Source: Thermoanaerobaculia bacterium | GTDB lineage: Bacteria > Acidobacteriota > Thermoanaerobaculia > Gp7-AA8 | DNA length: 34,830 nucleotides | NCBI GenBank assembly: GCA_023700825.1 | Contig: JAMPYE010000004.1 | Coordinates: forward strand, 1 to 34,830 | Reading direction: 5' to 3' | Shown here: piece after piece, positions 10,993-15,847 of the stretch | Layout of the letters: every line of letters starts with the position of its first letter | Position numbering within the stretch: position 1 is the first letter of the stretch | Made by a program: the position numbers and the translations under genes | Notes under the pieces: generated by a model | What the model was told of the DNA's origin: nothing | What the model saw: the letters and a program-made list of their open reading frames with translations, nothing else | The model's database searches: none

Positions 10993-11183
10993 AGTGTTCA
11001 GCGACGCCAGTTTCTTCCCTCAGGCGCCGCGCGCGCGGTGGGCCGCTCAGGCCCGCATGCTTGCCGTGTAAGGCGAGACCCTCGGCTCTTGCGAGGGGAC
11101 TTACCCTCGGTCATGATGTCGCGGCGAAGCGTCCGATCGAGGCAGTCGCTGACACATGCTGACCGGGGCCGCAGGAGAGAGCC

Positions 11184-12227
11184 ATGTACTGTCCGAAGTG
11201 CGGAAGCCCGATCGTCCCCGCGTCGAACTTCTGCACGCGATGCGGGACGCCGCTTCCCGTAGTGCCGCCCGGATCTCCCTCGTCGGACGCGGCGCTGCTG
11301 GCTCGGCCCGCCGTCATCACTCTGCTCGCGATCCTCGATCTCGTGTTTGGCGGAATCTGGCTCCTGGCCACGCTCGGGCTCTCGTTCACGCTGACCTCGG
11401 GCAAGAGCGACCCCGAGGACCTGGTGCTGGCGTTGATCTTCGGAGTGCTCGGCCTCACCGCGATGGTCGCCGGAGTCGGTCTGCTCCGGATGAAGGAGTA
11501 CGGGCGCATCGTCCAGCTCGTGCTCTCGACGATCGGCCTGCTCGGCATTCCGATCGGAACGATCATCTCCGCACTCGTCCTCTACTACCTCACGCGGCCC
11601 GGAGTTCGCGTGCTGTTCTCGGGCAGGCCGGTCGAGCAGCTCACTCCCGAAGAGATCGGGGCGGTCTCGCAGTTGAGGGGCTCGGGTGGTGCGGGAGTGG
11701 CGATCGCAGTTGCGGTAGGCCTGCTCGTCCTCGTGGCGGTCATGGGGATTCTCGCCGCCATCGCGATTCCCAACCTGCTCACCGCGATGCAGCGGTCGAA
11801 GCAGAAGCGGACGATGGCCGACATGCGCTCCGTCGCGACGGCGTGGGAAGCCTATGCCACTGACCACAACACCTATGCGCCCACGGACGCAATCGGCAGC
11901 ACCCATCCCGCAACGCTGACCGACGAGCGCGGCGTGATGCTCGAAGCCGCATCGAGGATCGATGCGAGCGAGCTGGAGAATGTGCTCGTTCCGACATACC
12001 TCCGGATGCTGCCGCAAAAGGACGGATGGGAACGGGAGATCGAGCTCTTCGTCGGTTCGGACGGGCAGGAATACGCCATGCGCTCGTCGGGAAAGAACGG
12101 CGTTGCCGAGAGCGAAGCCTACCAGGCGGGACCGATCAAGAATTTCGACTGCGACATCGTCTACGCGCTCGGCGAGTTCATCGCCTATCCGGAAGGAGCC
12201 GCGGTACAGGTCGACCAGCCGCGCTGA
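11184..12227 (+). CDS. Zinc-ribbon / multi-TM protein with C-terminal GspG-like pseudopilin domain
   Basis: N-terminal CPKCGSPIVPASNFCTRCG; several TM helices; MGILAAIAIPNLLTAMQRSKQKRTMADMRSVATAWEAYATDHN...LPQKDGWEREIELFVGSDGQEYAMRSSGKNG...FDCDIVYALGEFIAYPEG. Confidence 0.88.
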   Translation: MYCPKCGSPIVPASNFCTRCGTPLPVVPPGSPSSDAALLARPAVITLLAILDLVFGGIWLLATLGLSFTLTSGKSDPEDLVLALIFGVLGLTAMVAGVGLLRMKEYGRIVQLVLSTIGLLGIPIGTIISALVLYYLTRPGVRVLFSGRPVEQLTPEEIGAVSQLRGSGGAGVAIAVAVGLLVLVAVMGILAAIAIPNLLTAMQRSKQKRTMADMRSVATAWEAYATDHNTYAPTDAIGSTHPATLTDERGVMLEAASRIDASELENVLVPTYLRMLPQKDGWEREIELFVGSDGQEYAMRSSGKNGVAESEAYQAGPIKNFDCDIVYALGEFIAYPEGAAVQVDQPR

Positions 12228-13543: not shown

Positions 13544-15745
13544 TCAGGAGCCCGCCGGATACATCCGCTCGAACTCCGGGTCGTCGTGCAGCAGCGAGAG
13601 ATCGGGGTCGCGGCGCGCCCAGTCCGCATCCTTGAATCCGGCGTTCCACGCGCGCTGCAGCGCGTCGAGGGCGTCGGACTTCCTCTTCAGCTCGCAGAAG
13701 ACGCAGGCGAGGTTGTACAGGATCGTCGCTTCGTTAGGCCGCAGCGCCATCGCGAGGTTCGCTTCGCGCAGCGCGTCGTCGAGCTGGCCGAGCTGCGCGT
13801 AGTCGATCGCCAGCAGCAGCCGGGCGCGCGCATCTTCGGGGATCTGCTTCAGGTGCGGCTCGAGGACCTGCACGCGTCGCTGCCGCGCATTGCGAGCCGC
13901 CTCGGCCTTTCCCAGCGCGCCGTACGAGTTCAGGATCGGCACGTAAGTGTTGTAGTCGTTCCCGGCCGCGTCTGTCGCCGCGTCGGCCAGATCGGCGACC
14001 TCCTGGTAGCGCCCCGCCGCGAAGAGCGTGCGGAGCAGCAGGTAGTAGGCGCCCTCGCAGTCGGGCTTCTGCATGATCGCTTCGCGCACTCGCGAGATCG
14101 CGTCGTCGTACCGGCTTTCCGCGTGGAGGATCCAGGCCGCGGCGACCTTGACCTCGGGCAGGTCCTGCCGCAGCGCGCTCGCACGCTTCGACGCCGCGAG
14201 TGCGCGCTCGATCCACTTCTGGTCGCGCTCGAAGTGATAGTGATACTGCGCGCAGGCGTTCGAGATCGCCGCGTGCGCCAGCGCGAAGTTCGGATCGAGC
14301 GACACCGCGTTCTCGAACATCTGCAGCGCGAACTCGAGGTCCTGCCGTGTCAGGCGCCTCGCGAAGCTCTTCCCGCGCAGGTAGAGGTCGTACGCCTGCA
14401 GGTCCTCGGTCGGCTTCGACGCGAGCGCCTTCTCCTCCTGCGGCGAGAGCGTGACGCGGAGCGCCTCCGCGATCTTGCGTGCGATCTCGTCCTGCACTTC
14501 GAAGACGTCCTTCATCTCGCGGTCGTAGCGCTCGCTCCAGAGCGGGAAATCGGTCGCCGTGTCGACGAGCTGCGTGTTGATTCGAAGGCGGCTGCCGGCG
14601 CGCCGCAGGCTTCCCATCAGCACGTACGACGCGTTCTGCTGCTGGGCGATCTGCGCCGGCGTGACCGGCTTGTCACGGTACGACAGCACCGTCGCGCGCG
14701 AGAAGATCTTGAGCCCCTTGATCTTGGACAACTCGGTGATGATGTCCTCGGTGACGCCGTCGCGGAAGTACTCGTCTTCCTTGATGCCGCTCAGGTTCTC
14801 GAAGTAGAGGACCGCGATCGACTTCTCCGCCGGCTTCACGGAGACGCCACCACGCGTCTCGCCCGAGTCGTGCAGGCGCCGCCCGCCGGAGTCGAGGTCG
14901 CGCTTGAGGCGCATCAAGTCGGTCTTCAGGTCGTTCGCGCTTTGGTAGCGGAGGTTGCGGTCCTTCTCGAGAGCCTTGCCGAGAATCCGGCCGAGCTCCG
15001 AGGGAAGCGTCGGGTTGGCCTCGCTTGCGGGCTGCGGCTCGCGATTCAGAATCGCATCGAAAATCACGGCGGAGCTGTCGCCCGCAAACGGCGGCACCCC
15101 GGTCGCCATCTGGTAGAGGACCGTGCCGAGCGAGAAGATGTCGGTCCGCGAGTCGGTGAGCTGCGCGCGCGCCTGCTCCGGTGACATGTACGAGATCGTC
15201 CCGAGCGTCGTTCCCGCCTTGGTCAGCTCGTCGGGACGGACCGCGGTCGCGTCGCTCGGATCGGACCCTCGTCCCTGATCGATCTTCGCGAGCCCGAAGT
15301 CGAGGATCTTCGCCTGTCCTCTCGAGTTCACGAAGATGTTCGCCGGCTTGATGTCGCGGTGGACGATGCCCTTCGCGTGCGCAGACTCCAGGGCATCGGA
15401 TATCTGGATACCGATCTCGAGGAGCTGGGCCGCCGGAACCGCGCCCCTGCTGACACGCTCTGCAAGCGTCTCGCCTTCGAGCAGCTCCATCGCGATGAAG
15501 TGCTGTCCCTCGTGCTGGTCGATTGCGTAGACAGTGCAGATGCCCGGATGGTTCAGGGCCGAGGCGGCACGCGCCTCGCGCTGGAACCGTTCGAGTGTCG
15601 CACCGTCCCTCGCCATTTCGGGAGGGAGGAACTTCAGTGCCACGCGCCGACCGAGGCTCGTGTCTTCCGCTTCATAGACGACACCCATCCCGCCGCTGCC
15701 GAGTTTCGCAGTGACTCGATAGTGAGACAGAGTTTGGCCGATCAT
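13544..15745 (-). CDS. Serine/threonine protein kinase with TolB-like domain and TPRs
   Basis: [85 protein letters not shown]-terminus; an alternative start at 15820 exists. Confidence 0.93.
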
Positions 15746-15847
15746 GATTGGTTCCAGGTTTGGAGGTGGAGCGATCATCGTATCCACGCCCGATGTTGGC
15801 GTCAACGAAGGGACCTTCACGTTTGAGGTCGTGCGCGCGGCGCGAAT

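Follow-up and report, generated by a model that had tools for sequence, protein, structure and literature searches.

The 347-residue protein encoded in the window, the whole 34,830-nucleotide stretch of Thermoanaerobaculia DNA that was analysed, combines in one chain a zinc ribbon, a hydrophobic membrane module and a GspG-type pilin that begins within a membrane helix. As judged from sequence, the protein is pilin-derived: it is a pilin by homology and lies outside the pilin family by the class III signal that defines that family. Fusions built on the same module recur across the Acidobacteriota and carry pilins of two classes. Their features suggest that the fusion acts on the pilus machinery of its host.

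Gene and domain organization

The open reading frame given in the preliminary description is borne out to the base (Table 1). It starts with ATG and has a GC content of 0.84 at third codon positions. Compared with the orthologue in another genome of the same genus (G001), pN is 0.31 and pS is 0.64, with pN below pS in every segment, and both reading frames are intact at 53% identity. The gene is under protein-level selection.

Table 1. Features of the fusion gene, with positions in the window and residues of the encoded protein
Feature	Position	Strand	Evidence
Likely ribosome-binding site, AGGAG	11173..11177	+	read directly; 6 bases before ATG
CDS of the 347-aa fusion (zinc ribbon / membrane module / pilin)	11184..12227	+	full-length relatives; pN < pS
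Zinc ribbon, residues 2-24, CPKC...CTRC	11187..11255	+	Pfam Zn_Ribbon_1, E = 1.9e-7, over cut-off
Membrane module, residues 41-149 (RPxxxT ... GLL ... GR ... GLLGxPxGTxIS ... YLxRPG ... LFSG)	11304..11630	+	alignments A6, A7; hydropathy
Linker, residues 150-171, E157 conserved	11631..11696	+	alignment A7
Hydrophobic N-half of pilin-like helix, residues 172-187, replacing G|FTLIELLIVVAII; no acidic residue	11697..11744	+	
Retained pilin spine from G14, residues 188-234 (GILAAIAIPNLLTAMQRSKQKRTMADMRSVATAWEAYATDHNTYAPT)	11745..11885	+	identity to own pilin and to same-genus fusion
GspG-type head, residues 235-339 (DGW ... SSGKNG ... DCDIV ... GEFIAYPEG)	11886..12200	+	TIGR01710, PulG 5wda, family pilin profile

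The zinc ribbon has two CxxC pairs and matches Zn_Ribbon_1 (PF13240) with 31.1 bits against a cut-off of 25. Three strong hydrophobic segments precede the pilin helix. The third is long (about residues 112-137) and may be either one long helix or a hairpin, giving three or four membrane segments ahead of the pilin helix. The Pfam match and the hydropathy agree with the earlier assignment of a zinc ribbon and several TM helices in front of the pilin domain. Basic residues precede the first segment and are also found in the second loop and where the linker begins; the head is net acidic. By the positive-inside rule, this charge pattern would place the zinc ribbon and the linker in the cytoplasm and the head in the periplasm, with the third segment as a hairpin. 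Such an orientation, with the ribbon inside and the head outside, would be the same as that of an ordinary prepilin. AlphaFold2 models of the full protein and of the pilin part, built from an input of only three sequences, are poor (pLDDT 50 and 48), and the third segment appears in the model as a single helix. The window protein is unmatched by DUF7144 in Pfam; two relatives of the module score 21.1 (L241) and 17.9 bits (L242) against a cut-off of 27, a weak hint that the module may be related to that domain.

The pilin part and its junction

The pilin fold is supported by homology rather than by structure prediction. TIGR01710 matches residues 179-309 (E = 3.5e-10, 40 bits), and the solved PulG pseudopilus (5wda) matches residues 179-310 (E = 6.5e-6). 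A profile of the ordinary pilins of the window's family matches PulG over nearly its full length, with E = 7.5e-15. The Pfam T2SSG score of the window protein is 18.2 against a cut-off of 21, and five related fusions exceed this cut-off. Of the "complete-looking GspG" domain that had been proposed, the GspG-type homology stands; the TIGR01710 score, however, does not reach the equivalog cut-off of 88.85, and the closest relatives are GFTLIE pilins of the same bacterial family. The domain is indeed internal.

The match to the pilin starts at G14 of the mature helix (G188 of the window protein), and the first 13 residues, which include the cleavage site and E5, are replaced. Across the junction the window protein reads IAVAVGLLVLVAVM and then GILAAIAIPNLLTAMQRSKQKRTMADMRSVATAWEAYATD, and an ordinary pilin from the same genome (contig C206) has KGFTLIELLIVVAIIGILAAIAIPNLLTAMQRSKQKRTMADMRSIATAWEAYATD. 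The preliminary description had noted that the G|FTLIE signature is replaced, and the residues ahead of GILAAIAIPN hold no acidic residue at all; the same is true of the replaced half of the helix in every related fusion. The class III signal (a short leader, G(-1)|F(+1) and E5) is absent from the N-terminus of the window protein. The hydrophobic helix that runs on into an amphipathic spine is present, and from G14 the 47 residues of the spine are 87% identical to those of the C206 pilin, against 42% identity over the head. Since the processing signature is absent, here as in all the recurrent fusions, the window protein is very probably membrane-locked, as had been supposed. Its sequence argues against cleavage, N-methylation and assembly into a filament.

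Within the window's lineage, it is on the pilin spine rather than on the head that constraint is strongest. The spines of the two fusions from this genus are 85% identical, and all other regions are 43-62% identical. Recent gene conversion is not needed to account for the similarity between the spine of the fusion and that of its own pilin, since codons are shared at 23/37 and 19/38 of the identical residues, with no clear excess.

The ordinary GFTLIE pilins of the same genomes, such as that at C206:143-667 in the window's genome, differ from the fusion in starting with an ordinary prepilin leader followed by G|FTLIE and in lacking additional domains. Next to this pilin, at C206:781-1200 (L002/L039), the window's genome (G000) has a second pilin copy, which contains two TAG stops and looks decayed. 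An 828-residue frame around the pilin on contig C589 was rejected as a fusion, being a chance extension of the reading frame with a GMTLVE pilin start inside.

Distribution in the Acidobacteriota

Protein and profile searches covered 61 genomes of relatives, 149 of the class and 396 of the phylum. The domain-architecture search that the preliminary description had proposed turned up zinc ribbon and GspG-type fusions in further Acidobacteriota. With the window included, there are 14 fusions of the membrane module to a pilin in 13 genomes and 10 families, a recurrence of the same architecture that excludes an assembly accident. Full-length relatives occur in G001 (Acidobacteria NC_groundwater_304, of the same genus), G020 (Holophagales UBA2201), G126, G131, G168, G153, G446, G280, G432, G208, G199 and G314. 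One membrane module is common to all 14 fusions (alignments A6 and A7). The zinc ribbon is found in 11 and is absent from both copies in G208 and from that in G314.

The homologous module also occurs in proteins that differ from the fusions in having no recognisable pilin part: with a zinc ribbon (L241), with an FHA domain (L239 and L240) or as a small stand-alone protein (L118, L122 and L127). Another FHA protein with this module (L242) may carry a degenerate pilin part, although the signal is weak. At L158:2330-3406 (G163), a different multi-TM module precedes an uncleavable GspG-type pilin that exceeds the T2SSG cut-off, suggesting that anchors of more than one kind were used in the making of such fusions.

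GspG-type heads are also found without the pilin helix, at L217:981-2249 on contig C500 of the window's own genome and at L210, L213, L215, L219, L209, L212, L214, L216, L218 and L221. These heads sit in lipoproteins, in secreted proteins with two heads in tandem, behind DUF2059 and behind unrelated membrane segments, and several exceed the T2SSG cut-off. The GspG-type head seems to be a mobile domain in the Acidobacteriota. A scan of viral contigs for extra pilin sequences yielded GFTLIE pilins whose heads were different and which were of no use.

Origin of the pilin part

In two of the fusions (G199 and G314), the module bears a pilin of the NEASAIGSLR class, not of the GspG type. These pilin parts are 42% (E = 4e-27) and 37% (E = 7e-25) identical to the GFTLIE pilins of their own hosts, in which the GspG-type pilin profile matched weakly. 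By these comparisons, two pilin classes are present on one module, and the NEASAIGSLR class in these two hosts is the one to which their own pilins belong.

In a tree of the GspG-type pilin parts, the fusions of the window and G001 group with the pilins of their own genus (SH-aLRT 81), and the G280 fusion groups with its own pilin (SH-aLRT 91). A single origin of the 11 pilin parts is rejected (AU p = 0.007); with the window's genus left out, it is not rejected (p = 0.137). Tracking of the host is not a universal rule, since in four hosts (G020, G153, G168 and G208) the nearest relatives of the pilin part are not the pilins of the host, and the permutation p value, which leans on one well-sampled family, is discounted. 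Taken together, the AU rejection, the grouping with own pilins and the presence of two classes indicate that capture or replacement of the pilin part happened more than once, and that the resident pilins were the source in several cases.

Genomic context

Linkage to T2SS or T4P genes, raised as a check in the preliminary description, is not seen: no pilus or secretion genes occur among the neighbours of 15 loci. No conserved neighbour family was found across these loci either, and an operon link to T2SS or T4P is thus absent. In the window, the neighbours encode a Kup K+ transporter, a small HAD-like ORF (below cut-off), a LysE translocator, a DUF1569 protein and a Ser/Thr protein kinase with TPR repeats. 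The kinase gene (13544-15820, minus strand) is on the opposite strand to the fusion gene, at a distance of about 1.3 kb, with no sign of a link between them.

The window's genome encodes several ATPases of the T2SSE/PilB/PilT type in addition to ordinary pilins. A prepilin peptidase was found in 12 of the 14 genomes examined, the exceptions being the window's genome and G001. Its gene adjoins an ExbD gene in relatives. In G001 the contig stops 62 bases past the matching ExbD gene (C36:5421-5893), and in the window's genome there is a partial ExbD match at a contig edge (C507:48-254). The absence is not taken as a loss of the peptidase in the window's genus, since the contigs end where relatives encode it; the missing gene is probably an assembly gap.

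Possible function

Pilins are N-terminally processed subunits that leave the membrane as the filament grows. The spine is the surface by which they pack together in type IV filaments, and E5 is required for normal type IV pilin assembly. In the fusions, a single membrane module, in most cases preceded by a zinc ribbon, is joined in frame, within a membrane helix, to a pilin. Having no free N-terminus and no E5, and having extra membrane segments, such a protein would be neither released nor extracted and would not be a normal filament subunit. It would stay in the inner membrane, where the retained spine could pack on resident pilins or on the assembly platform. Fixed at the base of the filament as a pilin-like partner, it might provide a nucleating, holding or terminating site or act as a brake, and the cytoplasmic zinc ribbon may be the part through which it is controlled. 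The protein is best explained as a non-cleavable paralogue of pilins, anchored in the inner membrane and packed against the resident pilins or their platform, although this explanation is held with somewhat less than even confidence.

A close rival, ranked below the membrane-locked partner and itself a substantial possibility, is that the GspG-type head has been recycled as a general periplasmic ligand-binding or structural domain, in which case the protein would be a sensor or adaptor that spans the membrane and plays no part in pili. This would fit the occurrence of the same head without the pilin helix in several other settings, the replacement of the zinc ribbon by FHA domains on the same membrane module, and the orphan genes with no pilus linkage. 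A sensor based on its head should, however, conserve the head, and in the window's lineage it is the head that has diverged and the membrane and spine part that is conserved. The module has, moreover, repeatedly taken a whole pilin from mid-helix, with two classes of head. A spine that is held constant, and a pilin part that in some of the family is the host's own, are compatible with a non-polymerising membrane-locked partner and favour it over a pure sensor. Against the membrane-locked partner stand the missing pilus-gene linkage and conserved neighbourhood, the four hosts whose own pilins are not tracked and the single origin allowed once the window's genus is left out. A duplicated pilin would also resemble the resident pilin through its origin alone, and pilin-type heads serve outside pilins in the same phylum. 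Furthermore, three members lack the zinc ribbon, the topology is a matter of inference and the predicted models from AlphaFold are of poor quality.

It is improbable that the protein is an ordinary pilin precursor in disguise, cut in the linker or helix by another protease that frees a polymerising mature pilin. The linker offers enough length for a cut and the protein from G14 onward is still like a resident pilin, but the G|x site and E5, the latter needed in normal assembly, are absent from all members. Mitochondrial GspG, by comparison, keeps its processing features even though no prepilin peptidase is known for it (PMC8134430). Slightly less probable still is that the protein is a dispensable relic, in which a duplicated pilin was fused by chance and now drifts without function. 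The patchy orphan genes and the decayed pilin copy beside the C206 pilin are what drift might leave behind. The fusions, however, keep intact frames at 53% within-genus identity, with pN below pS in every segment, and the same architecture is present in many independent assemblies.

Relation to known pilin systems

The fusion resembles the major pseudopilin GspG/PulG (TIGR01710, PF08334, PDB 5wda) in its spine from G14 and in a head with DGW and SxGxDG...DxDI-like positions. It differs in that its pilin is internal, has no class III signal or E5, lies behind a zinc ribbon and membrane module and is not linked to T2SS genes. In the literature searched, which included few subscription papers, no description was found of zinc ribbon fusions to pilins or pseudopilins, or of GspG in Acidobacteria. 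The nearest case described there is mitochondrial GspG (miT2SS; PMC8134430), which also has an additional N-terminal part on a GspG domain. In mitochondrial GspG this extension probably serves as a targeting sequence, and the features of processing, including E5, are retained (PMC8134430), whereas the extension of the fusion is a multi-pass module and its processing features and E5 are gone.

A wider proposal, which is rather doubtful, is that on more than one occasion in the Acidobacteriota a resident pilin class was joined to one membrane module. The locked pilins so made would seed, hold or restrain the type IV filaments of the cell from the inner membrane, with the cytoplasmic zinc ribbon as the control end; the fusion would then be a new filament-biogenesis factor. 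The swap of classes, with two kinds of pilin on one module, offers a natural experiment in specificity. If these proteins are recurrent locked pilins, they would represent either an inner-membrane element of a new kind that controls type IV filaments or a clear case of pilin domains that are leaving the filament world.
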